Of a DNA stretch of 64,000 nucleotides, positions 32,481 through 64,000 are shown one piece after another. This DNA is from Anisus vortex (lineage: Eukaryota > Mollusca > Gastropoda > Planorbidae): the NCBI GenBank assembly GCA_949126835.1, contig OX421505.1, positions 7,820,587 to 7,884,586 on the forward strand, read 5' to 3'. Below the pieces are notes generated by a model, which did not search any database, was not told where the DNA came from, and was given only the letters and a program-made list of their open reading frames with translations. Within the stretch, counting starts at the first letter, position 1; every line of letters begins with the position of its first letter. Both the position numbers and the translations under genes were made by a program.

Positions 32481-34244
32481 CCTAGCCGTACTTCGATATT
32501 TTGCATACATATTGTACTTCGTGTTCCATTTTTTGGGTCATACTTTTACATAGAGAAAATATTAGTGTTCCCTTTTTTGGGTCATACTTTTTATACAGAC
32601 AAACTATTTCTAACACACTTTAGCATTGGAGAATAAGATAAAATCATACAAACTATTTCTAACACACTTTAGCATTGGAGAATTATATAAAATCATACAT
32701 CTTATTGACTTTAAGCACATAAAATGTCATTTATTGATGAAAAATCTCAAAATAAAAGATTTAAACAGAAATAACATCAAAGATATCTTTCTTTGAGCCT
32801 TCATAGTCATCATGGTTTAAGCATCACAATTCTTGCAATTCAGCATGGCCTTGGCTCTGTCCTAAAACTCGTGGGATTGGGGACATCGCACCTGTGTATA
32901 TGAATATGATACACTTGAGAGGGTAGTACGTTTCTGAGTCACAGATCCAGAACAACTTCAGGCCGTACTTTGCAGGTTTGCTTGGTATGTACTGTATAAA
33001 TGAGCAACGCCATCTGGAGGGTATGAGCTGCTCATCCACAGTCAGTGAAGCTCCAGGAACATAGTATTTTTGGAGGTTGGTATGGTGGAGGTCCAACACT
33101 TTGCTGATTGGAGCGAGCTGGTCAGTTTCTTGTCTTCTGTGACGGGTGTCTTTGTTGTCAAACCTCAGCTGGAAACATCTGTTCTTCGACATTGTGGCTC
33201 GCACAAAATCTTGCCCGATGAGGGGCTCCCAAATTGTAGTCAGGTTTACTTTGCTCTGTTTCTGAGCACCCAGGAAGACAAGAATATCGATGAGCCCTCT
33301 GATCTCTACATCGTCTGTCTCCTTCCATGCATCTCCTCTCTGCCCTTTTCCTTCTTCATTTGTGTATTTCACAATCAGCTTGATCATGTCTCGAGAAATG
33401 AAAAGATCAAAAGTCTCTGCAGGGCTTGTGGCATCGTGTGTGTTTGGAATACGATTCCGCAGAAGAGTCACAATATTTGACCTTGTAGTTTGAGCATTTG
33501 GTGCCGTAGGGGTACTTTTCAACTCTGTGCCATCTTTCCCATAGTAACTTCTTGTTCTGACTACAGTTCCATCAACTAATTCTTCAGAAATGGAAGAGTT
33601 CAAGTTTGGGTCAATGCTTTCTTCCTCACTACTATCACTAGATCGAGAATCATCATCACTATCATCACTGAAAGGGACAAACTCATCTTCATCACTCATT
33701 TCACCTTCACTATACTGATCAGCATCAGCATTATCTTCTTCTCTGTCAATAGCTCTGACTTGATCAACATGATCTCCTGCATCATCAACTCCAACTTGAA
33801 GTAAATCAAAAATATTTCTGCTTGAACCAGGCCTAGCTTCTTCACCAGCCGCCATTTTGATTTTACTCCAGGGGAGATAATTAACAATGCCTGCTTGAAC
33901 TAACATAAACAAAGAATATCTATAACTTGTGATATATGACTCCTCTATATAAAAGTATGACCCAAAAAGTGGAACATGAAGTGTGACTGTGCATTTACTT
34001 TTTTTTCCCTATTTATAAGTATGACCCAAAAAATGGAACACGAGGTACGATTTGAGTATTTTTTTTTTCTTGTCAATTGCTCTAAAATGGAAAACCTAAT
34101 ATCAAGGACAATATTATTTTATGATGTAAAAATGGTTAATTTGAGATGTCACAGAAGATGGATAGTGTAGTTTGACTGGTTGCTGAGCAAGTGTGTAAAC
34201 AAACCCTTGTGTTCCCTTTTTTGGAACACGAAGTATGGCTAGGG
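32481..34244 (-). mobile_element. piggyBac transposon with TTAA duplication, 1764 bp
   Basis: TTAA flanks both ends (32477-32480 and 34245-34248). The left end is CCCTAGCCGTACTTCG and the right end is its near complement CGAAGTATGGCTAGGG. Each end also has two subterminal copies of a GTGTTCC...GGGTCATACTT motif (32519 and 32565 on the left; about 33953 and 34017 on the right). A 40-bp direct duplication lies at about 32600-32690. It holds one truncated transposase gene and is inserted in a Gypsy remnant. Confidence 0.9.
32824..33855 (-). CDS. piggyBac transposase, C-terminally truncated
   Basis: The likely start is the ATG at 33855 (MAAGEEARPGSSRNIFDLLQ), 19 codons inside the longest frame, because this Met sits in a good AAAATGGCGG context. 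The protein has a strongly acidic N-terminal part (SDEDEFVPFSDDSDDDSR), then the conserved piggyBac core: ISRDMIKLIVKYTN, FLGAQKQSKVNL, and TVDEQLIPSRWRCSF with the first catalytic Asp, then PSKPAKYGLKLFWICD. Family members are about 550-600 residues. This frame ends at 343 residues soon after FIYTGA, so the second and third catalytic Asp and the C-terminal cysteine-rich finger are absent. Internal deletion is the simplest cause. It could still bind DNA but should not cut. Confidence 0.85.
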   Translation of the reverse strand: MAAGEEARPGSSRNIFDLLQVGVDDAGDHVDQVRAIDREEDNADADQYSEGEMSDEDEFVPFSDDSDDDSRSSDSSEEESIDPNLNSSISEELVDGTVVRTRSYYGKDGTELKSTPTAPNAQTTRSNIVTLLRNRIPNTHDATSPAETFDLFISRDMIKLIVKYTNEEGKGQRGDAWKETDDVEIRGLIDILVFLGAQKQSKVNLTTIWEPLIGQDFVRATMSKNRCFQLRFDNKDTRHRRQETDQLAPISKVLDLHHTNLQKYYVPGASLTVDEQLIPSRWRCSFIQYIPSKPAKYGLKLFWICDSETYYPLKCIIFIYTGAMSPIPRVLGQSQGHAELQEL

Positions 34245-42301: not shown

Positions 42302-44960
42302 CCCGTCGGCATCCGTCCGTCTCCAAGAGACGATGGTGTAGCTTCACGGCAAAGGTGACCAGCTGTACCGCCGAGAATGGCTGTGGAGGCCAACTTGGGA
42401 GTGACAATCCCTGCCGCACTTCAGGCATTTGAAGGTGGATGGCTGTTGTAATAGAACCTTCCGCCTCGCTCTTTTCTGGATGGCAGCCTCCTTGCGCCCA
42501 GTTTCTGCGCGGGATGTGCCAAGCCTGACTGCGAGCCTCCAGGTTGGTCGGTCAGAAGCTTGGCATTCCCATGTGTCAAGGTCAATTGAGCTCTCGTTCA
42601 GGTCCCTTTTGCAAAGGTCCTTGAAGCGCAGTTTTGGGCGCCCTATCTTCCGGTGGCCTTCGACCAGTTCTCCATAGAGGAGGTCTTTAGGAATGCGACC
42701 TGCATTCATCCTTTTCACATGGCCGAGCCACCTGAGGCGTTTCTCACTGAGCACAGCGTGAAGGCTGCTCATGTTGGCTCTCTCCAGCACCTCTGTGTTG
42801 GAGACCCTATCCTGCCACTTGATCTGCAGTATGTTCCGTAGGCACCTCATATGGAAGCTGTTGAGTTTCTTCTCGTGCCTCGCGTAGGTGGTCCATGACT
42901 CACAGCCATACAGGAGAGTACTGAGTACGCAGGCGTGGTAGACGCGCAGTCTGGTCCTCTCGGTGAGGCTGGAGTTGTCCCACACTCGCTGTTTTAGTTG
43001 GGCAATGACTGTGGCTGCCCTGGCGATCCTGCTGTTGATCTCCAAGTCGATGGACTGTGAACTCGAGATAATGGACCCGAGGTAGGTGAAGTTCTCGACA
43101 ACCTCCAAGGTGTGTCCATCGATGACAATGTTTGGAGGGGTCTCCGTGCCCTGAGCCATGACGTTTGTCTTTTTCAGGCTTACAGTGAGGCCGAACTCCT
43201 TGCATGCATGGGAGAAGCAAGTGACGAGCTGCTGGAGTCCGTCTTCGGTGTGTGATGTCAAGGCTGCATCATCATCGAAGAGCATCTCGCGAATGAGGAC
43301 CTTTGTGACTTTGGTCTTGGCACGAAGGCGCGCTTTGTTGTAGAGCTTGCCATCAGACCTGGTGTGAATAAAAACACCCTCGCTGCAGTCCTTGAAGGCG
43401 TGTTGGAGGAGCATGGAGAAAAAGATGCCGAAGAGTGTAGGCGCGAGTACGCAACCCTGCTTTACTCCGCTGCTGACTGGGAATTCCTTGGAGGTTGCGC
43501 CATTGTAGCAGACAGTGCTGTGCATGTTGTCGTGGAAGGACCTGACCACCGCAAGCAGGTGTGGGGGACATCCGATCTTCTACAGCAAGCTGAATAGTCC
43601 GCCTCGGCTGACCAGATCAAATGCCTTTGTGAGGTCGATGAATGCTATATAGAGTGGCATCTGCTGTTCCTGACACTTCTCCTGGAGCTGGCGTAGTGAG
43701 AAGATCATGTCAACCGTTGATCGACCAGCCCTGAAGCCACACTGTGACTCTGGGTAGATGCGTGAAGCGAGGGTCTGCAGGCGGTTAAGGATGACGCGGG
43801 CGTACGCTTTACCAACGATACTGAGGAGGGAGTTGCCCCGATAGTTGTTACAGTCGCTCCTGTCACATTTGTTTTTGTACAAAGTGACGATGTTAGCGTC
43901 TCTCATATCTTGTGGAATGTAACCCTGTTCCCAGCAAAGGCATAAGAGGTCGTGAAGTTGCTGTAACAGGGCTGGTTTCCCGCACTTTAGTACTTCTGGT
44001 GGGATTCCGTCGCTCCCAGGTGCTTTACCACAGGCGAGACGGTCGATGGCCTTGCTGAGCTCATCCAAAGTGGGTGGAAAGTCAAGCTCCTCCATGACCG
44101 GCAGGTCTGATATCGCTCTGAGAGCGGAGTCTGTTACAGTGTTCTGCGTTGCGTACAGTTCACGGTAATGCTCTACCCGCCTCTGCATCTGCCTTTCGGG
44201 ATCGGTGATAACCTCGCCTGTTTTGGACTTGAGGGGGGCTGTCTTAGAGGGGGTTGGACCTATTGCCTTCTTGATGCACTCGTACATCCCTCTTGCTTTG
44301 CCTGTTTCGGCAGCTGTCTGAATGCTGTCACAGATATTCAGCCAGTAGGTATTGGCACAATGACGGGCAGTCTGCTGGGCTTTGCTCCTGGCAGCCCGTA
44401 GAGCTTGTAGTGTACTGGGGCAAGGCTTAGCCTTGTAGGCCAAAAGGGCTTTCCTCTTAGCCTCTGTCACGGGTTCCATTTCCTCCCAATGGGCCTCGTA
44501 CCAGTCAGCATTCTTCCGCTCTTTCTTCCCGTAAACAGTAATGGCTGCTTTGTACATGGCGTCGCGGAGGCGTGGCCACTTGGAGTTGATGGTGTCATCA
44601 GCTGTTTCCACTTTGAGGGCACCGTCGAGTATGCTAATGAGCTGTTGGGTTTTCTCGGGGTTTCTGACACAGCTGGTTTTGATGCGTGGGCGGCCCTTCT
44701 TCTTTGAGTGGTGCAACTTCTTCGTCGTTAGGCGCACCTTGCTCGCCACGAGGGCGTGGTCCGTGTCGCAGTCTGCACTATGGTAACTACGTGTGAGGAG
44801 GACGCTGCCAATGTCCGCTCTTCTAGTTAGGACAAGATCAAGTTGATGCCAGTGGCGAGAGCGAGGGTGTCTCCACGACACCTGGTGTATTTCTTTGCAC
44901 TTGAAGAAGGTGTTGGTCACGTACAGACCGTGATGGCACGAGAGCTCAAGCAGTCTGGAA
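42302..44960 (-). mobile_element. non-LTR retrotransposon with 10-bp TSD
   Basis: AATAATATCT is present at 42292-42301 and 44961-44970. The 3' end (at 42302 on the minus strand) has no poly(A) and carries a small hairpin (GTCTCCAAGAGAC) close to the terminus. The 5' end stops inside the endonuclease domain, the usual sign of incomplete reverse transcription. GC content is far above that of its surroundings. Confidence 0.95.
42344..44930 (-). pseudogene. LINE ORF2: endonuclease tail, RT, zinc finger; one stop
   Basis: The frame starts in the C-terminal part of an apurinic-type endonuclease (HQLDLVLTRRADIGSVLLTR, then DTDHALV). An RT domain follows: GKAPGSDGIPPEVLK, NNYRGNSLLSIVGKAYARVI, QCGFRAGRSTVDMIF, AFIDLTKAFDLVSRGGLFSL, SSGVKQGCVLAPTLFGIFFS and the catalytic box LFDDDAAL. 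After the thumb (YGCESWTTYARHEKKLNSFH) come GRPKLRFKDLCKRDL and a C-terminal finger CLKCGRDCHSQVGLHSHSRR. A single in-frame TAG (43580-43582) breaks an otherwise open 860-codon frame. The box reads FDDD where family members have FADD, a second probable lesion. The clade is not certain. It made the cDNA copy during target-primed integration and is now inactive and 5'-truncated. Confidence 0.9.
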
Positions 44961-52904: not shown

Positions 52905-53033
52905 GTATACCCTTCAGACCAAACTGATCAAAGGGCCGGTGAAGCAGCGTTCACCGGTTTCTGTGGCCACGGCATGCTAGAGGATGTGTGGCTAGCACAA
53001 TGCCCAGCCGCCTTTACTTTATCCCAACGTAGG
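52905..53033 (-). repeat. SINE 3' half
   Basis: Same family: CCCTTCAGACCAAACTGATC, then GAAGCAGCGTTCACCGGTTT and GTGGCCACGGCATGCTAG. It stops at 53033, where the next block starts. Confidence 0.75.
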
Positions 53034-53271: not shown

Positions 53272-53319
53272 GCAAAGTACCCTTCGGACCAAACCTATCA
53301 TAGGGCCGTGAAGCAGCGT
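53272..53319 (-). repeat. SINE 3' end, interrupted by the palindromic element
   Basis: CCCTTCGGACCAAACCTATC, then GTGAAGCAGCGTT, breaks off exactly where other copies would continue CACCGGTTTC. Confidence 0.65.
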
Positions 53320-53340
53320 TAGTAGTGTAGTAGGGTCGTT

Positions 53341-53520
53341 TCGAGGAGTATTTGAGGCGTACGCCTCGAGGTGTACGCCTCAGTTGACCTTTGACCTTTG
53401 ACCCGGAAGTGACCTTTGACCCGGAAGTGACCTTTGACCCGGAAGTGACCCCAACCGGAAGTCGTTGTACCGGAAGTGACGTCATCCAAGATGGCGTCTT
53501 GTCGTGTTGTTATACGAGGG
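53341..53520. promoter_or_regulatory. dense cis-motif cluster at the element's outer end
   Basis: In order: a perfect 14-bp palindrome GAGGCGTACGCCTC and a near copy, TTGACCTTTGACC (a DR1 nuclear-receptor-type site on the other strand), three 18-bp units of TGACCTTTGACCCGGAAG, two more CCGGAAGT ETS sites, a consensus CRE (TGACGTCA at about 53477) and CAAGATGGCGTC (YY1-like). Motif matches are seen directly; function is inference. Confidence 0.55.
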
Positions 53521-55560
53521 TTTTTTAATTAAGGGTAATACGGTCAGCGGTTCTAAAATTATTTTTCCTATTGTCTTACAATGATTGATTTTCCCATTGT
53601 CTTACAATGATTGACACATGTCATATTATTTCTCCCATTGTTTCATAATGGTCTTTATAAGGTTCAGCGGTTCTAAAATTTTATAATTATTTGATAATAT
53701 TAATTAATTGGTTATTTTTATAGTGTTCTTAATAATTTTCAATAGTAAAAGGCTTTTTTCAATAAGTTTATTGTGATTTTTGCCCTCATTACCATCTTTT
53801 AAGCGATAATTGTCTTGTAAGGGTCATTATTAATTACTTGGAGACAGTAATTATCTTAATTTTATACTTAACTAATTAACGAATTTTAATTTTTATAGCC
53901 ATAACTATCATGTAAAGGAGCGTTTATTAATTACCAAGGGCCCTAATTATCACATTTTAATCAATAATTCTTTAATAACGTGCCTTTTTACTTACTTGGA
54001 CACAGTAATTGTATACTTTATTAATTAACTAATTATTATTTGAATAGCCATAATTAGCTTGTAAAAGGGCGTTTATTAATTACAAAGGGTTCTAATTATC
54101 AGATTTTAATCAATAATTCTCTAATAACGTGATAATTAATTACTTGGACACAGTAATTGTCTTAATTTATTCTTAACTAATTAACTATTTTTATACATTT
54201 TTACTTACTTGGACACGGTAATTTTCTTAAAATATTCTTAACTAATTAACTAATTATACTTTTTATAACCCTAATTAACTTGTTTTTAATTACTAAGGGG
54301 GTGTAATTATCACTAAATAACCCCTAAATATTTATTTATATACATTTTTACTTACTGGGGTACAGTAATTTTCTTAATTGTATACTTTATTAATTAACTA
54401 ATTATAATTTTTTTAACATTAATTAGCTTGTAAAGGGGCGTTTATTAATTACAAAGGGGCCGTAATTATCACTAAATAGACCACATTTTATATACTTTTT
54501 TACATTTTTACTTACTTGGAGGCAGTATTTTTCTTTATTCTTAATTAATTATCTAATTATAATTTTGAGTCATAATTACTATTTTATAATTTTCTTTTAA
54601 ACATAATTATTTTTAATTTGCATTGATAATCAATGTTTTGAAAGTCTAAACATATATCCTTTAACATTTTTAGAACCCCTGAGGCGCTTATTCACATCGC
54701 TGTCTAACTTTTTACCTGAGCAGCTGTTTATTTTTATCGCTCAGCGCGTCTTTTAATGACTTTTTCAGCTGTTGTGGAAATTCTTTTGTAGTGCTGTTCT
54801 CGCTCGCGCTGTTAATGACTTTTTCATCTGTTGAGAAAAGTCTTTTGATCTCGCTTTACTCGCTTTTTAATGACCTGGTGTGAAAAAGAGATAAAACTGC
54901 CCTTTCAAAGTCTGCTATGGGAGATAATTCAAGTAGCACTAAAAGTTTTTTTCTTTACAACTTACGTTTCCCAGATATTTTTTTTTTTTTTTTTTTTTTA
55001 TGTTTTTTTTTTTTTTTATCATTTGGATTAGTTTTGGGGTTATTTTTTCTTTGTATTTCGAGTATTCGTTTTTTAAATATTTCGCTTTTCAATTTAAATA
55101 ATTTCAATTGTTTAATCGTTAACTGCAATGTTTGACTTACTATAACATCATTATTCCCTTTATTTTATACTTACCTATTTTAAATGTGTATCTTTTGAAT
55201 TTAAATTTTCTTAATTTTCTATTGATAACTGAATTTTAAGATTCTTTATTTACTTACTAAAAGGCGTGATTTTCTTTTTTTTTTTTAAACTTATATATTT
55301 TACAATTTAAACGATAAGTAAATACAATTTTTTACGTACTAAAACTAGTAATTTCTATATTTTATACGAAATTAATTAACGAATTTTATTTTTTTTAAAG
55401 TCATACATATCTTGTAAGGCGAGTTTTTACTTATTAAGAGGCGTATATTTCTTTAATTAAGGCTTACATTATATAACTTTTGTTTAAATTCTTTAATAAG
55501 TCACCCTTTTTATTTACGAACTTTATACTTACATAGTTAACATTTGTATCATTTAATTAT
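53521..55560. repeat. AT-rich degenerate tandem repeat (~170-190 bp)
   Basis: Recurring strings TTAACTAATTATAATTTTTA, GCTTGTAAAGGGGCGTTTAT, TTACTTACTTGGACACAGTA appear at least four times between 53820 and 54560, then decay. From 54992 on it is mirrored at the right window end. No gene is visible. Confidence 0.7.
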
Positions 55561-55904
55561 TCTTTCAATTTTAATTGATAATACATGTAAATATATTTTA
55601 CTCAACTAATTTAAAATTTTCCCTTTTAAACATACGTATTTCTAATGTGAATTGATAATCATTGTTTTAAAAGCCTAAACTCTAAACATTTTTAGAACTC
55701 CAGGACAAAATATAAAGTCCAGATCTTTTGATCGTTCACAAAGTACATTATTTTAGTGTATGCGTATTTTGAATAACTGTCTAATAAGTGTCTCTTTAAC
55801 TTTTAAAAGTCAGTTTGTTAAATGGTTGTATCTTTTAATTTTTGTCGTGTAATTTTTACTTAATAGGATTAAACATTTTAAAATTTAAGTAACTTAAGTG
55901 TTTC

Positions 55905-56260
55905 AAGTGATGTCCAATATGGCGGGTCAGAAGGGGGCGGATCCAAGATGGCCGATCCGAGTGTTCCATGTGATTATTTTTGTGTAGTGTTACACGTGAT
56001 TTTATCATCGTGGTTTAATTAAAGATACCGGAAAACAAGATGGCGTCCGATGTACGTGGCATACAAGGGCAGTAACCGTGTAATTAAATTTGTAATTTTT
56101 GTATTTTTAATTAACTTTATGGTTGTAGACAAGATGATGGAAGGGGTGTATTGAAGTTGTTGACTCCACTGTTCCACATGCTGATGAACCGGAAGTAAGA
56201 TGGCGTCCGATTTACGTGGCATACAAGGGCAGTAACCATGTAAATAATTTTTTAAACAGT
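55905..56260. promoter_or_regulatory. YY1/ETS-like motif cluster with 46-bp duplication, left arm
   Basis: TCCAATATGGCGGGTC, GATCCAAGATGGCCGATC, and two copies of AAGATGGCGTCCGATNTACG continuing to GGCATACAAGGGCAGTAACC (56037 and 56198). One copy is preceded by ACCGGAAGT. It is located beyond the 3' end of the Bcl-2 gene. The mirror is at 62732-63087. Confidence 0.5.
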
Positions 56261-56359
56261 AAACAAAGAAAGTTTTAATTTTATTTTTTTTTTATTTGCG
56301 TTCAAGTACATCAAACAGAGAATAAAACAACAACAACATGACTGGTAGTTTATTTATTT

Positions 56360-57071
56360 TTATAATATTCGATTCTCAGTGTTCAGGATTTGTAGAGCGA
56401 AAAGTGCACAAAGTGTCAAGATCCCAATGCCTGCAGCAGCACAGCCTAGGATTGTCTTAAGTGAGGGCCAAGAGCTGCCATTTTTATTCTCACCTCTACC
56501 AGACTTGAATTCCAAAAACCCTTCCTGTGTTGAAGAAGATGGAAGCTAGTTTAATATACGCTTTTATATTTAACTTTCTATAGGATGATTTTTGTTTAAA
56601 GAGTGTCTTTGTTACTCTTGTAAACCTATTACTTACCCAGTTATTATGACTATTTAGCCAACTCGACAAATGTATATCAATATATGTTGTTAACCATTCT
56701 AGAAGATTATCTACTAGGTGGTATTTCTTTAGTTGAAAACACCGAGCTGCAAATTGACCCGAAAAGTCAAACAACGCCACAATTCGTCCCCAATTTATAT
56801 CCTCACAAAATATTTCTATAACGATCGATGTGAAAGTGTCATACGCATTGTCATCAGTTATGACTAGACCATCTATTAGGTTATCAAATCTATTCTTAAA
56901 TCGTTCTTCAAATTCATCTCCTAGTATTCTCATAGCATTTTGAACAGAATTCGGAGTGTTGATAATACTTTCATGCCGACCATCGTTTCTCCAAGTATAC
57001 CCATTGCATTGTAAACGATATTTTATGTAATCCACCGCAATGCTACGCGTATTTTCATGTCCTATAGACAT
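56360..57071 (-). CDS. Bcl-2 family anti-apoptotic-type protein, left copy
   Basis: The CDS is complement(join(56360..56524,56637..57071)), the exact mirror of the right copy and identical in protein as far as I can see. It encodes 199 residues: BH4 at 8-27 (TRSIAVDYIKYRLQCNGYTW), BH3 at about 43-58 (NAMRILGDEFEERF), BH1 at about 85-107 (DINWGRIVALFDFSG), BH2 spanning the intron (SWLNSHNNW then EGFLEF), and a C-terminal hydrophobic helix (ILGCAAAGIGILTLCALFAL) with a short tail. Such proteins sit on outer mitochondrial and ER membranes and hold Bax-type partners in check. Four BH regions plus the anchor fit the pro-survival Bcl-2/Bcl-xL type, but Bax-like function cannot be excluded. The 112-bp intron has GTAAGT and TTCTTCAACACAG. 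The gene points away from the palindrome centre. Confidence 0.9.
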
Positions 57072-57239
57072 ATTATTTTCACGAGAACTAATAAGAATTA
57101 CAAAAATAACCGTTTTACTTAACGAAAAACCACAACACTTTTAAACAACTGAATAAGGAAGACTACATAATTTTATAAAAATTTGCTGAATAGTGGAAAA
57201 AGACCACCATCTGACAAGCAAACATTTAACGAGCAGGTG

Positions 57240-57555
57240 TTAAACAGCTGCCCGCTAGGCGCTGACCAAGGTAACGACTTCCTGTCCAGGTGTTGAATCC
57301 ATTATCGGGCCGTCGCCCGCTGTGCCAGGTAATGGCTTCCTGTCCAGATGTTTTTGCACTTACCTGACCGTGAGAAAACCTAAAAGCTAACATTCCCACG
57401 ACCAGGGTAATGGTTTCCTGTCCAGGTGTTGAATCAATTATCTGGTCGCTGGGCGCTGACCAAGTTAACGACTTCCTGTCCAGATGTTATTGCACTTACC
57501 TGACAGTGAGAAAATCTAAAACCTAACATTCCCAGGGTCACGCCAAACCTAACCG
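57240..57555. repeat. ~180-bp duplication with ACAGGAAG sites, upstream of Bcl-2 (left)
   Basis: Two copies of a block containing CTTCCTGTCCAGGTGTTGAA and TTGCACTTACCTGACNGTGA, with four CTTCCTGTCC (ETS-like) sites in all. It lies 170-480 bp upstream of the start codon, where a promoter would be expected. The mirror is at 61437-61752. Confidence 0.6.
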
Positions 57556-57639
57556 TCAACAACGTTCCCACTTTTTTAATTGTCTTCTTCAATCTCTGCC
57601 TTTTTTTACTAACTTCTTATCTCTTTCTCGAAAAAAATT

Positions 57640-58985
57640 TTAAGTACAATTTCTCAAACTCTCCCTCTCTCAAAAAACTTTGTAGACAACCTTTTTTAAA
57701 ATTTTTCTCTCTCGCAAAAAAACTTTGTAGGACACCTTCCCAAAATCTCTCTCTCCAGACAAACTTTTTTAAGTACGTCTTCCCAAAATCTCTCTCTCTC
57801 CTGACAAACTTTTGTAAGTTCACCTTCCCAAAATCTCTCTCTCCTGACAAACTTTTTTAAGTACAACTTTTCAAACTCTCTCTCTCCTGACAAACTTTTT
57901 TAAGTTCACCTTCCCAAAATCTCTTTCTCCTGACAAACTTTTTTAAGTACAACTTTTCAAACTCTCTCTCTCCTAACAAACTTTTTTAAGTACAACTTTT
58001 CAAACTCTTTCTCTCCTAACAAACTTTTTTAAGGTCACCTTCCCAAAATCTCTCTCTCCTGACAAACTTTTGTAAGTTCACCTTCCCAAAATCTCTCTCT
58101 CCTAACAAACTTTTTTAAGTACAACTTTTCAAACTCTCTCTCTCCTGACAAACTTTTGTAAGTTCACCTTCCCAAAATCTCTCTCTCCTGACAAACTTTT
58201 TTAAGTACAACTTTTCAAACTCTCTCTCTCCTAACAAACTTTTTTAAGTACAACTTTTCAAACTCTCTCTCTCCTGACAAACTTTTGTAAGTTCACCTTC
58301 CCAAAATCTCTCTCTCCTAACAAACTTTTTTAAGTACAACTTTTCAAACTCTCTCTCTCCTGACAAACTTTTGTAAGTTCACCTTCCCAAAATCTCTCTC
58401 TCCTGACAAACTTTTTTAAGTACAACTTTTCAAAGTCTCTCTCTCCTAACAAACTTTTTTAAGTACAACTTTTCAAACTCTCTCTCTCCTGACAAACTTT
58501 TTTAAGTTCACCTTCCCAAAATCTCTCTCTCCTGACAAACTTTTTTAAGTACAACTTTTCAAACTCTCTCTCTCCTGACAAACTTTTTTAAGGTCACCTT
58601 CCCAAAATCTCTCTCTCTCCTGACAAACTTTTTTAAGTTGAAGTTCACCTCCCCAAAATCTTTTACACTCTCGACAAACTTTTTAAGTTGAAGTTCACCT
58701 TCCCAAATCTTTGACACTCTCGACAAACTTTTTAAGTTCACCTTCCCAAAATCTTTCACACTAGCTCTCGCTTGACAAACTTTTTCTTAGTTCACCTTCC
58801 CAAACTCGCAATCTCTCCCGACAAACTTTTTTAACTTCACCTTCCCAAAATCTTTGACACTCTCGAAAACTTTTTAAGTTGAAGTTCACCTCCCCAAAAT
58901 CTTTTACACTCTCGACAAAATCTTTAAGTTAACCTTCCCAAAATCTTTCACACTAGCTCTCGCTCAAAAACACTTTTTCTTAAAA
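57640..58985. repeat. 43-bp-class minisatellite, left arm
   Basis: The unit is TCTCTCTCCTGACAAACTTT, then TTTAAG, with two alternating endings: TACAACTTTTCAAAC (A type) and TTCACCTTCCCAAAATC (B type). About 28-30 units. The order of A and B types is irregular and is mirrored exactly in the right arm. Confidence 0.9.
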
Positions 58986-59312
58986 GCTTTCCCACTCTCG
59001 ACAAACATTTTAGGACACCCCTCCATGGACTTCGGTCTAACAGTATCCATCTCTCTGTCTCCAACTCTTTCTCGCCCCATCTCTTCTTCTAACAAAACTT
59101 TAAGTTAACACAATCCTAACGATCACGCATTCCTTCTTTCTGCCTTGCTCAATCTCTGTATCTCTTACTTCATTCTTCTCTCAAACTCTGTCTCTCTCTT
59201 TCCTGCGTGCCATCTTTTACTTGTCTCATTGTCAGTACTTACTTTCCTTACTCTGTCTACACTTATTTCTCTCTTCGTCTCTTTTCGCTAACAAAACTTT
59301 GTGTTAACCAAC
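58986..59312. repeat. CT-rich inner end of left arm
   Basis: It holds a ~190-bp block (TTCTGCCTTGCTCAATCTCT, then CTCTCAAACTCTGTCTCTCT) that is repeated, diverged, in the first half of the spacer. Confidence 0.6.
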
Positions 59313-59679
59313 CCTAACACGTACACATTCCATCTTTCTGCCTTGTTCAATCTCTGTATGCCTAACTCTTACTTCATACTTCTCTCAAACTCTGTCTCTC
59401 TCTCTAAAAACACTTTATGTTCAGCAAACCCTAAAACATATTCCACTTCACAGCGTTCCCTCTTTCTGCACTATAATCATTTTGATATGTAATTGATTTA
59501 GGAGATATTTCTATGATAGGCCTGAGAAGGAAAGTAATGGGAATGACAAGGGTTGTATAGGTGGTGAGTGGCATTATGTGTTACGAAAATTATTCCCACT
59601 ACTATTAGTAAATGTTGGTTAGGTAATTAACGTTTCCATAGATAGTTTGGTAAAATTTGGCAAAATTTAGACAGTAATA
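59313..59679. other. asymmetric spacer at the palindrome centre
   Basis: The first half (to about 59420) is a second copy of the CT-rich block in the left arm, so it has no partner on the right. The second half is ordinary AT-rich sequence. A 367-bp unique loop lets the arms pair as a stem. No gene is visible. Confidence 0.85.
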
Positions 59680-60005
59680 GTTGGTTAACACAAAGTTTTG
59701 TTAGCGAAAAGAGACGAAGAGAGAAATAAGTGTAGACAGAGTAAGGAAAGTAAGTACTGACAATGAGACAAGTAAAAGATGGCACGCAGGAAAGAGAGAG
59801 ACAGAGTTTGAGAGAAGAATGAAGTAAGAGATACAGAGATTGAGCAAGGCAGAAAGAAGGAATGCGTGATCGTTAGGATTGTGTTAACTTAAAGTTTTGT
59901 TAGAAGAAGAGATGGGGCGAGAAAGAGTTGGAGACAGAGAGATGGATACTGTTAGACCGAAGTCCATGGAGGGGTGTCCTAAAATGTTTGTCGAGAGTGG
60001 GAAAG
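59680..60005. repeat. GA-rich inner end of right arm
   Basis: Exact reverse complement of 58987-59312 in the positions checked. Confidence 0.8.
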
Positions 60006-60006
60006 C

Positions 60007-61352
60007 TTTTAAGAAAAAGTGTTTTTGAGCGAGAGCTAGTGTGAAAGATTTTGGGAAGGTTAACTTAAAGATTTTGTCGAGAGTGTAAAAGATTTTGGGG
60101 AGGTGAACTTCAACTTAAAAAGTTTTCGAGAGTGTCAAAGATTTTGGGAAGGTGAAGTTAAAAAAGTTTGTCGGGAGAGATTGCGAGTTTGGGAAGGTGA
60201 ACTAAGAAAAAGTTTGTCAAGCGAGAGCTAGTGTGAAAGATTTTGGGAAGGTGAACTTAAAAAGTTTGTCGAGAGTGTCAAAGATTTGGGAAGGTGAACT
60301 TCAACTTAAAAAGTTTGTCGAGAGTGTAAAAGATTTTGGGGAGGTGAACTTCAACTTAAAAAAGTTTGTCAGGAGAGAGAGAGATTTTGGGAAGGTGACC
60401 TTAAAAAAGTTTGTCAGGAGAGAGAGAGTTTGAAAAGTTGTACTTAAAAAAGTTTGTCAGGAGAGAGAGATTTTGGGAAGGTGAACTTAAAAAAGTTTGT
60501 CAGGAGAGAGAGAGTTTGAAAAGTTGTACTTAAAAAAGTTTGTTAGGAGAGAGAGACTTTGAAAAGTTGTACTTAAAAAAGTTTGTCAGGAGAGAGAGAT
60601 TTTGGGAAGGTGAACTTACAAAAGTTTGTCAGGAGAGAGAGAGTTTGAAAAGTTGTACTTAAAAAAGTTTGTTAGGAGAGAGAGATTTTGGGAAGGTGAA
60701 CTTACAAAAGTTTGTCAGGAGAGAGAGAGTTTGAAAAGTTGTACTTAAAAAAGTTTGTTAGGAGAGAGAGAGTTTGAAAAGTTGTACTTAAAAAAGTTTG
60801 TCAGGAGAGAGAGATTTTGGGAAGGTGAACTTACAAAAGTTTGTCAGGAGAGAGAGAGTTTGAAAAGTTGTACTTAAAAAAGTTTGTTAGGAGAGAGAGA
60901 TTTTGGGAAGGTGAACTTACAAAAGTTTGTCAGGAGAGAGAGATTTTGGGAAGGTGACCTTAAAAAAGTTTGTTAGGAGAGAAAGAGTTTGAAAAGTTGT
61001 ACTTAAAAAAGTTTGTTAGGAGAGAGAGAGTTTGAAAAGTTGTACTTAAAAAAGTTTGTCAGGAGAAAGAGATTTTGGGAAGGTGAACTTAAAAAAGTTT
61101 GTCAGGAGAGAGAGAGTTTGAAAAGTTGTACTTAAAAAAGTTTGTCAGGAGAGAGAGATTTTGGGAAGGTGAACTTACAAAAGTTTGTCAGGAGAGAGAG
61201 AGATTTTGGGAAGACGTACTTAAAAAAGTTTGTCTGGAGAGAGAGATTTTGGGAAGGTGTCCTACAAAGTTTTTTTGCGAGAGAGAAAAATTTTAAAAAA
61301 GGTTGTCTACAAAGTTTTTTGAGAGAGGGAGAGTTTGAGAAATTGTACTTAA
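60007..61352. repeat. 43-bp-class minisatellite, right arm
   Basis: Reverse complement of the left array, with the same irregular order of unit types. Short frames through it (MSGERDFGK-type) are translations of the repeat and are not genes. Confidence 0.9.
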
Positions 61353-61436
61353 AATTTTTTTCGAGAAAGAGATAAGAAGTTAGTAAAAAAAGGCAGAGAT
61401 TGAAGAAGACAATTAAAAAAGTGGGAACGTTGTTGA

Positions 61437-61752
61437 CGGTTAGGTTTGGCGTGACCCTGGGAATGTTAGGTTTTAGATTTTCTCACTGTCAGGTAAGTGC
61501 AATAACATCTGGACAGGAAGTCGTTAACTTGGTCAGCGCCCAGCGACCAGATAATTGATTCAACACCTGGACAGGAAACCATTACCCTGGTCGTGGGAAT
61601 GTTAGCTTTTAGGTTTTCTCACGGTCAGGTAAGTGCAAAAACATCTGGACAGGAAGCCATTACCTGGCACAGCGGGCGACGGCCCGATAATGGATTCAAC
61701 ACCTGGACAGGAAGTCGTTACCTTGGTCAGCGCCTAGCGGGCAGCTGTTTAA
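61437..61752. repeat. ~180-bp duplication with ACAGGAAG sites, upstream of Bcl-2 (right)
   Basis: Mirror of 57240-57555. GGACAGGAAGTCGTTA and GGACAGGAAGCCATTAC carry the ETS-like core. It lies in the presumed promoter region of the right Bcl-2 copy. Confidence 0.6.
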
Positions 61753-61920
61753 CACCTGCTCGTTAAATGTTTGCTTGTCAGATGGTGGTCTTTTTCCACT
61801 ATTCAGCAAATTTTTATAAAATTATGTAGTCTTCCTTATTCAGTTGTTTAAAAGTGTTGTGGTTTTTCGTTAAGTAAAACGGTTATTTTTGTAATTCTTA
61901 TTAGTTCTCGTGAAAATAAT

Positions 61921-62632
61921 ATGTCTATAGGACATGAAAATACGCGTAGCATTGCGGTGGATTACATAAAATATCGTTTACAATGCAATGGGTATACTTG
62001 GAGAAACGATGGTCGGCATGAAAGTATTATCAACACTCCGAATTCTGTTCAAAATGCTATGAGAATACTAGGAGATGAATTTGAAGAACGATTTAAGAAT
62101 AGATTTGATAACCTAATAGATGGTCTAGTCATAACTGATGACAATGCGTATGACACTTTCACATCGATCGTTATAGAAATATTTTGTGAGGATATAAATT
62201 GGGGACGAATTGTGGCGTTGTTTGACTTTTCGGGTCAATTTGCAGCTCGGTGTTTTCAACTAAAGAAATACCACCTAGTAGATAATCTTCTAGAATGGTT
62301 AACAACATATATTGATATACATCTGTCGAGTTGGCTAAATAGTCATAATAACTGGGTAAGTAATAGGTTTACAAGAGTAACAAAGACACTCTTTAAACAA
62401 AAATCATCCTATAGAAAGTTAAATATAAAAGCGTATATTAAACTAGCTTCCATCTTCTTCAACACAGGAAGGGTTTTTGGAATTCAAGTCTGGTAGAGGT
62501 GAGAATAAAAATGGCAGCTCTTGGCCCTCACTTAAGACAATCCTAGGCTGTGCTGCTGCAGGCATTGGGATCTTGACACTTTGTGCACTTTTCGCTCTAC
62601 AAATCCTGAACACTGAGAATCGAATATTATAA
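61921..62632 (+). CDS. Bcl-2 family anti-apoptotic-type protein, right copy
   Basis: The CDS is join(61921..62355,62468..62632), 199 residues. Exon one ends at codon 145, a Trp (AAC TGG|GTAAGT), and exon two starts GAAGGG after TTCTTCAACACAG. The join completes BH2 as SHNNW|EGFLEF. Bcl-2 family genes of many animals carry an intron at this same Trp, so the structure is ancestral and argues that the gene was taken from genomic DNA rather than from an mRNA. Key residues: BH3 L-x-x-x-G-D-E core as RILGDEF, BH1 NWGR at 93-96 with the Arg that usually binds the BH3 Asp, and a C-terminal anchor. Two AATAAA signals follow at 62634 and 62638. The unspliced frame would stop at 62496 without the anchor. 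Both copies are free of damage. Confidence 0.92.
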
Positions 62633-62731
62633 AAATAAATAAACTACCAGTCATGTTGTTGTTGTTTTATTCTCTGTTTGATGTACTTGAACGCAAATAA
62701 AAAAAAAAAAAAATTAAAACTTTCTTTGTTT

Positions 62732-63087
62732 ACTGCTTAAAAAATTATTTACATGGTTACTGCCCTTGTATGCCACGTAAATCGGACGCCATCTTACTTC
62801 CGGTTCATCAGCATGTGGAACAGTGGAGTCAACAACTTCAATACACCCCTTCCATCATCTTGTCTACAACCATAAAGTTAATTAAAAATACAAAAATTAC
62901 AAATTTAATTACACGGTTACTGCCCTTGTATGCCACGTACATCGGACGCCATCTTGTTTTCCGGTATCTTTAATTAAACCACGATGATAAAATCACGTGT
63001 AACACTACACAAAAATAATCACATGGAACACTCGGATCGGCCATCTTGGATCCGCCCCCTTCTGACCCGCCATATTGGACATCACTT
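62732..63087. promoter_or_regulatory. YY1/ETS-like motif cluster with 46-bp duplication, right arm
   Basis: Mirror of 55905-56260; it lies just beyond the Bcl-2 polyadenylation signals. Confidence 0.5.
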
Positions 63088-63089
63088 GA

Positions 63090-64000
63090 AACACTTAAGT
63101 TACTTAAATTTTAAAATGTTTAATCCTATTAAGTAAAAATTACACGACAAAAATTAAAAGATACAACCATTTAACAAACTGACTTTTAAAAGTTAAAGAG
63201 ACACTTATTAGACAGTTATTCAAAATACGCATACACTAAAATAATGTACTTTGTGAACGATCAAAAGATCTGGACTTTATATTTTGTCCTGGAGTTCTAA
63301 AAATGTTTAGAGTTTAGGCTTTTAAAACAATGATTATCAATTCACATTAGAAATACGTATGTTTAAAAGGGAAAATTTTAAATTAGTTGAGTAAAATATA
63401 TTTACATGTATTATCAATTAAAATTGAAAGAATAATTAAATGATACAAATGTTAACTATGTAAGTATAAAGTTCGTAAATAAAAAGGGTGACTTATTAAA
63501 GAATTTAAACAAAAGTTATATAATGTAAGCCTTAATTAAAGAAATATACGCCTCTTAATAAGTAAAAACTCGCCTTACAAGATATGTATGACTTTAAAAA
63601 AAATAAAATTCGTTAATTAATTTCGTATAAAATATAGAAATTACTAGTTTTAGTACGTAAAAAATTGTATTTACTTATCGTTTAAATTGTAAAATATATA
63701 AGTTTAAAAAAAAAAAAGAAAATCACGCCTTTTAGTAAGTAAATAAAGAATCTTAAAATTCAGTTATCAATAGAAAATTAAGAAAATTTAAATTCAAAAG
63801 ATACACATTTAAAATAGGTAAGTATAAAATAAAGGGAATAATGATGTTATAGTAAGTCAAACATTGCAGTTAACGATTAAACAATTGAAATTATTTAAAT
63901 TGAAAAGCGAAATATTTAAAAAACGAATACTCGAAATACAAAGAAAAAATAACCCCAAAACTAATCCAAATGATAAAAAAAAAAAAAAACATAAAAAAAA
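63090..64000. repeat. AT-rich outer part of right arm, cut by window end
   Basis: Reverse complement of 54992-55902, including matching homopolymer lengths (A15 at 63975-63989 against T15 on the left). No gene is visible. The element continues past the window. Confidence 0.85.

Follow-up and report, generated by a model that had tools for sequence, protein, structure and literature searches.

Polintons/Mavericks are virus-like DNA elements with their own polymerase and integrase, and together with the adintoviruses, which are grouped with them, they are among the closest known systems to the element described here. Herpesviruses and poxviruses encode viral Bcl-2 proteins. Symmetric recombinants of adenovirus (SYREC), which arose in cell culture, have a palindromic genome in which host DNA lies between two viral ends, and use protein-primed replication; to our knowledge, they are not known as a multi-copy germline element. 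Among mobile elements, the giant Gypsy retroelements of planarians named Burro carry BCL2-like and BIR motifs, and Pack-MULEs and gene-capturing Helitrons are non-autonomous or capturing elements with pieces of host genes, according to passages of PMC6431247. Here we describe a giant palindrome with captured genes in a 64,000-nucleotide stretch of the snail Anisus vortex (contig OX421505.1, positions 7,820,587 to 7,884,586; hereafter the window), which sits on contig C14 of an 863-Mb genome in 159 contigs. The palindrome is a real, mobile element that inserts as a unit with a 6-bp target-site duplication. Our data indicate that it probably belongs to a multi-copy, non-autonomous family of palindromic Polinton/Maverick derivatives, which has captured genes of an anti-death type and would depend on a helper in trans.

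The palindrome shares a similar tip, the 6-bp duplication, the start of the ATPase gene and a stretch of the PolB tail with a full Polinton of this genome, but no polymerase, integrase or capsid gene was found in the palindrome copies read, and the element consists almost entirely of inverted repeat and carries Bcl-2 and ICAD cargo. Viral Bcl-2 genes are likewise captured genes in parasitic DNA genomes, whereas the gene of the snail element has an intron, sits in an integrated element and stands beside an ICAD domain. With SYREC the element has palindromic form and virus-type ends around captured host DNA in common; it differs in being germline and present in many copies. As far as the passages on Burro go, apoptosis-regulator motifs in a mobile element are the likeness, but Burro is a long terminal repeat retroelement with the motifs inside its polyprotein, and the snail palindrome is a DNA element with separate, intron-bearing genes. 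Pack-MULEs and Helitrons, as described in the same source passages, differ in carrying mostly gene fragments, using other transposition enzymes and forming no giant palindrome. An earlier note on this DNA, made from the sequence alone, knew of no described mobile element with such cargo. This stands for DNA transposons as far as titles and abstract openings among the matches listed go (subscription papers and preprints lying outside the scope), since none with Bcl-2 or ICAD cargo was named there; it does not stand for mobile elements at large, because the Burro precedent, from the passages cited, makes apoptosis motifs in transposons already known and a DNA element with Bcl-2 and ICAD a variant.

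Within the window, each position x from 54992 to 59312 is paired with 118992-x, with 3 mismatches in 4321 bp per arm around a loop of 367 bp, which bears out the near-perfect palindrome of the earlier note. The left arm starts at 53321 and the right arm ends at C14:7886244, the equivalent of window position 65658, very close to the predicted 65670. A third arm of the same sense adjoins the right arm and reaches window-equivalent 72723 beyond the window, so that the inserted unit spans 19.4 kb (C14:7873907-7893309, 19,403 bp). AGCGTT stands on both sides of this unit, which supplies the flanking duplication that the earlier note had proposed to look for. Just outside the copy, at 52908-53026, lies a diverged paralogue of the uninterrupted (empty) site that agrees at 104 of 119 positions. 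Fuller copies elsewhere consist, from the tip inward, of AT-rich repeats, an outward Bcl-2 gene, 136-bp and 43-bp repeats, an inward gene for a DFF45/ICAD C-terminal domain and a minisatellite centre, followed by the mirror image, and the 43-bp repeats separate the starts of the two genes. In the window copy, all that is left of the centre and its two ICAD-domain genes is the loop, and the third arm brings one ICAD-domain gene, giving a total of three Bcl-2 genes and one ICAD-domain gene. Because of this deleted centre, the second captured gene had been overlooked in the first reading. That the arms are nearly identical could be put down to a single inverted duplication or to misassembly, but like units with different flanks and exact duplications are found elsewhere. 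Since such structures recur at other loci, the palindrome is neither chance nor a single assembly error, and the multi-copy evidence already contradicts that explanation, which we regard as having next to no probability.

We found that the 22-base tip motif occurs at 358 places genome-wide (188 forward and 170 reverse matches; reversed control, 0 and 0), so that the further copies of the terminus sought by the earlier note exist. Among the 100 of these places that were listed, 90 fall into 45 pairs that face inward and span 8.1-19.3 kb (median 14.4 kb). The Bcl-2 frame has 150 scored places among 416 candidates, many of them minus/plus pairs 2-13 kb apart, and 32 of the 44 best-150 Bcl-2 matches on C1-C5 fall inside a listed tip pair. 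Element ends were read in 16 copies, six found via Bcl-2 and ten picked from tip pairs, and 15 of the 16 have a perfect 6-bp target-site duplication: all ten from the tip pairs (one being CCCCCC within a run of C) and five of the six found via Bcl-2 (C14, C17, C4:28.3M, C9:6.8M and C16:8.6M). The earlier suggestion of a foldback-like element with a hijacked survival gene therefore holds in part: the element is multi-copy, foldback-shaped, flanked by duplications and equipped with a cell-survival gene. A link to the Foldback (FB) family found no support (no FB sequence was compared); the 6-bp duplication, the AGTAGT tips and sequence shared with an element that encodes PolB and integrase connect it with Polintons/Mavericks instead. 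A classical Foldback element or a cut-and-paste transposon with terminal inverted repeats would fit the long inverted arms made partly of tandem repeats, but FB elements make target duplications longer than 6 bp; the 6-bp duplications in 15 of 16 copies and the sequence in common with a PolB/integrase element render this reading very improbable. Passages of PMC12220804 give a 6-bp duplication for the rve integrases of Polinton-like viruses; a search of PMC4028283 gave no passage on duplication or repeats.

The outward two-exon Bcl-2 gene described for each arm in the earlier note is confirmed by a Pfam match to PF00452 (4.3e-24) and by a second exon past a GT-AG intron. Its best match among solved structures is Bcl-xL (4e-28), the BH4 region scores 18 bits, below the cut-off of 20.5, and exon 2 encodes a membrane tail, recognised by eye. 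The product is a Bcl-2 family member and is predicted to be anti-apoptotic. Among named proteins the nearest belong to gastropods: Biomphalaria glabrata ranks first (69%), followed by Aplysia, Physella and Elysia. The top PF00452 match in the genome is a cellular gene at C1:17433409, whose exon 1 ends at the same residue as the element's exon 1 with a GT donor (by eye; the comparison covers exon 1 and the donor of the cellular gene). In a tree of 26 rows, whose bootstrap is not fully settled, the 20 element-type rows form one clade (100/98) that is sister to the cellular gene (98/93), and the B. glabrata protein P0003 falls outside both. Tree placement and the common donor site together point to genomic DNA of the host lineage, and not mRNA, as what was captured. 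P0003 is labelled heat shock protein 30C by its source. Two further snail-like Bcl-2 proteins, P0002 and P0004, from sources whose longest contigs measure 8.1 and 52 kb, are continuous across the intron position and may be intron-free copies. Bcl-2 copies about 85-90% identical occur at five loci (L039-L043: C1:72.40M, C17:31.21M, C12:17.70M, C7:7.98M and C7:8.94M), two of which are inward plus/minus pairs, the C1 pair lying outside the listed tips; several C7 copies lie far apart, and the set is possibly another element family.

The second captured gene has two exons (L013:508-678 and 792-980, plus the mirror copy) and encodes a protein of 120 aa that matches DFF-C at residues 32-105 with 38.3 bits (cut-off 25). 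DFF-C is the only domain found in the 120-aa protein, and the N-terminal CAD/CIDE-N domain of a full DFF45/ICAD was not found in it; judged by its sequence, the gene is a single-domain derivative of ICAD. A search of solved structures with the protein gave a best E of 0.37, and the sole match in a protein search was a sequence of 84 aa, 100% identical over 48% of the query. A PF09033 profile search of the genome returned no match, but it was silent on the element's own exons and on the controls too and is hence uninformative. The two-exon Bcl-2 gene and the ICAD-domain gene are both present in all seven copies read. The ICAD-domain gene begins like the Polinton ATPase gene: 55 of 62 bp agree, comprising 14 bases before the ATG and 16 codons, and the common stretch stops at the start of the nucleotide-binding loop (the loop being placed by eye). 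By tblastn, this ATPase start (14 of 16 residues) is found at five places in palindromes.

The genome contains Polintons with which the palindrome can be compared. A PF03175 search found seven PolB places with frames of 858-1516 aa, whose pairwise blocks are 92.9-99.96% alike. This family (L069-L075) has frames open to 1516 aa, and two of its places lie 10 kb apart on C5. One of the seven places was read to its ends, C1:21417090-21432212, a Polinton of 15,123 bp with terminal repeats of about 1.3 kb (99.3% alike) and a 6-bp duplication, TGCGTA, on both sides. Its integrase matches rve (1.3e-13) and Chromo (1.1e-9), its ATPase matches Pox_A32 and Adeno_IVa2 above the cut-offs, and the polymerase motifs of the PolB frame were recognised by eye. 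The presumed capsid frames were not recognised by PHROGs or Pfam, and the names capsid and protease are guesses by eye. The integrase has many relatives in public data (3820 proteins); in the viral_contigs database, from which the records of this genome may be absent, no relative of either the integrase or the element Bcl-2 was found. Six palindrome tips match the 32-base tip of this Polinton at 23, 23, 22, 20, 19 and 18 positions. Against a background of 27,968 stretches the maximum was 20, with at least 20, 19 and 18 matching positions in 2, 7 and 28 stretches, respectively (2, 4 and 16 for the reverse complement). In addition, the palindrome centre matches the region preceding PolB over 31 bp, and 67 bp of AT-rich sequence next to the Polinton ATPase gene are found again behind the ICAD gene. 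A tblastn comparison of six palindrome pieces with 11 Polinton frames, of which PolB and one capsid-like frame were incomplete, gave the ATPase start, five times, as its only match. Thus the palindrome is not an autonomous Polinton with its own PolB, integrase, ATPase and capsid; what it has of a non-autonomous Polinton derivative is the 6-bp duplication, similar tips and sequence derived from Polinton genes.

A further link comes from a tip class with no Bcl-2 matches. At C1:30.40M, where 5 kb of one side was read (L079, C1:30406500-30411500), the element retains the palindrome skeleton, and tblastn at E 10 found neither captured gene, giving one chance match of 33 columns. In place of Bcl-2 there is a 74-bp match to the PolB tail (59/74), beyond which the encoded residues remain similar, by eye, as far as a stop codon in the corresponding position. 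None of the 15 listed pairs with this tip (15 of the 45 pairs) contains a best-150 Bcl-2 match; one of them was read, and a diverged Bcl-2 is possible in the other 14.

We compared Bcl-2 exon 1 among copies for signs of selection, using 24 full-length open sequences (17 distinct) from a set of 28, with L032, L043, L044 and L047 dropped as cut, stopped or gapped. Over the 54 pairs that differ at 15 or more positions, the median dN/dS was 0.28 (range 0.21-1.75). Six comparisons of the main class (window, L031) with the class of 89% identity (L039, L041, L042), which are non-independent, gave a dN/dS of 0.21-0.37 with p from 5e-6 to 3e-3. Values were 0.29-0.39 between element and cellular Bcl-2, and 0.8-1.6, non-significant, within the 89% class. 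In the seven copies read, all 55 exon matches are open, one being cut by the end of its piece. Such purifying selection between classes, and genes open in seven of seven copies, would also fit if the cargo were kept by selection on the snail, as dispersed survival genes for host immunity or stress tolerance. However, many copies with exact duplications suit selfish spread, and the ICAD domain is fused to the start of a Polinton gene; we therefore consider a benefit to the host quite unlikely as the reason for the cargo.

Several observations weigh against a Polinton derivative with anti-death cargo. The PolB Pfam match is weak (30-34 bits against a cut-off of 25.8), hmmscan with a 1285-aa PolB piece found no Pfam family at 0.01 and PHROGs gave no match for a 1276-aa piece. 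Three of the six tips match the Polinton tip at 18-20 positions, within reach of the background, with the other three (22-23) above it. In the arms read, similarity to the Polinton is limited to the tip, the start of the ATPase, the PolB tail and two short stretches that are AT-rich or lie in the centre. PolB is directed away from the near tip in the Polinton, and its tail points towards the near tip in the palindrome, so a palindrome arm is not simply a Polinton end, and the true helper may be another family. The copy at C1:45.77M has inverted flanks and no duplication. On the side of the cargo, 17 of the 45 listed tip pairs contain at least one of the 150 best Bcl-2 matches, and 34 of these 150 matches have stops, by a hand count that leaves 116 without; some of the stops are harmless, since the query spans the intron. 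The single pair within the main class has a dN/dS of 0.41, indistinguishable from neutral. Support for the 89% class as a clade is weak (87/84), and its membership in such elements is putative, so part of the constraint could date from elsewhere.

Two alternatives draw on these points. In one, the same mobile element is moved by a different integrase element and acquired its Polinton fragments secondarily, which would suit the small size of the parts that match the sampled Polinton, a Polinton tip that does not fit the 22-base palindrome motif and the examination of ends at one of seven PolB places. The tips, the 6-bp duplication, the ATPase start and the cargo-free PolB tail all point one way, however, and make this alternative unlikely. 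In the other, the genes are neutral passengers on a successful palindrome: 28 of the 45 listed pairs are without a best-150 Bcl-2 match, including the whole of one tip class, the partly read pair of that class has neither gene, and the main-class dN/dS is non-significant. Against this stand both genes being open, as far as read, in seven of seven copies and the between-class dN/dS values, and we hold the passenger explanation to be rather unlikely. We retain a Polinton/Maverick derivative with captured genes as the probable explanation.

The two arms of a copy resemble each other more than they resemble those of other copies. In a 1.46-kb single-copy stretch from 13 arms, arms of the same copy differ by 0-0.21% (six copies) and arms of different copies by 0.41-3.87% (72 pairs), with no overlap of the ranges, and we conclude that the arms of each copy are kept alike. 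Stops occur in 12 Bcl-2 pairs; in eight of these both arms have identical stop codons, and in the other four they differ (a hand count in which codons, not positions, were compared). One arm would template the other, via a hairpin intermediate of replication or by gene conversion in the chromosome, and both fit. At C1:45770932-45792735 (L012:932 to L014:2735), the palindrome exceeds the element by about 3.3 kb on each side at 99.6-99.9% identity, with no direct duplication; the extended flanks are a later inverted duplication or conversion, and they suggest that events of the gene-conversion type occur in the chromosome.

How such an element might work can be proposed from what is known of the protein families. 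A Polinton integrase, perhaps with PolB too, would be supplied in trans and act on the palindrome tips, joining AGTAGT ends to staggered cuts 6 bp apart; the duplication is observed, and the enzyme is the presumed agent. The element Bcl-2 would hold back mitochondrial release, an upstream block of apoptosis, and the ICAD domain would bind caspase-activated DNase, a downstream block; alternatively, the ICAD domain alone might disturb the folding of that DNase. The gain for the element would be survival of cells while Polinton or element DNA replicates. Both the block of cell death by the cargo and the movement by Polinton enzymes are steps that we infer from sequence. A close analogy for this proposed working is a DNA-virus satellite whose genome is palindromic. 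A fuller version is possible, and we offer it tentatively: a germline palindromic satellite of an endogenous DNA virus, with Bcl-2 and ICAD in the PolB and ATPase slots, might spread by keeping Polinton-active cells alive, and hairpin replication might renew arm identity in each round.

The features of the window are collected in the table. Rfam and tRNA scans of the window gave no match. Elsewhere in the window, a putative piggyBac-like transposase frame (32824-33912) and putative pieces of a non-LTR reverse transcriptase (42344-44920) were recognised by eye.

Table. Positions of the element and its parts in the 64,000-nucleotide window.
Feature	Position	Strand	Remarks
Paralogous empty target site	52908..53026	+	flanks joined with a single AGCGTT; match at 104/119 positions
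Target-site duplication AGCGTT, left copy	53315..53320	+	right copy from C14:7893310, window-equivalent 72724
Inserted element	53321..64000	.	runs past window end to 72723-equivalent
Element tip AGTAGTGTAGTAGGG...	53321..53352	+	tip motif at 358 places genome-wide
Left arm	53321..59312	+	
AT-rich tandem repeats, 149-160 bp, outer arm	53782..54566	.	
Bcl-2 exon 2, left copy	56360..56524	-	hydrophobic tail (by eye) and stop
Bcl-2 intron, left copy, GT-AG, 112 bp	56525..56636	-	splice sites by eye
Bcl-2 exon 1, left copy, 145 codons	56637..57071	-	
136-bp repeat, two copies, left arm	57264..57534	.	
43-bp tandem repeats, ~25 copies, left arm	57732..58853	.	
Loop, remnant of normal centre	59313..59679	.	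two ICAD-domain genes of fuller copies absent here
Right arm	59680..64000	-	continues to window-equivalent 65658
43-bp tandem repeats, right arm	60238..61259	.	
136-bp repeat, two copies, right arm	61458..61728	.	
Bcl-2 exon 1, right copy	61921..62355	+	
Bcl-2 intron, right copy	62356..62467	+	
Bcl-2 exon 2, right copy	62468..62632	+	with stop

The element thus combines inhibitor-type genes for the two ends of a single death pathway, and one of these genes is fused to the start of a Polinton gene; Bcl-2 matches lie at no fewer than 150 places, and the ICAD domain is in every one of the seven copies read. With this element one can test whether transposons need to overcome cell suicide as viruses do, and it suggests a route from a virus-like element to a palindromic satellite. 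One genome offers the series of cargo-free element, cargo-bearing element and possible helper. Captured genes of this kind suggest a genomic parasite that possibly keeps its host cell alive for its own benefit. If expressed, the 116 stop-free Bcl-2 matches among the 150 could influence host cell survival, immunity or tumours in this snail.

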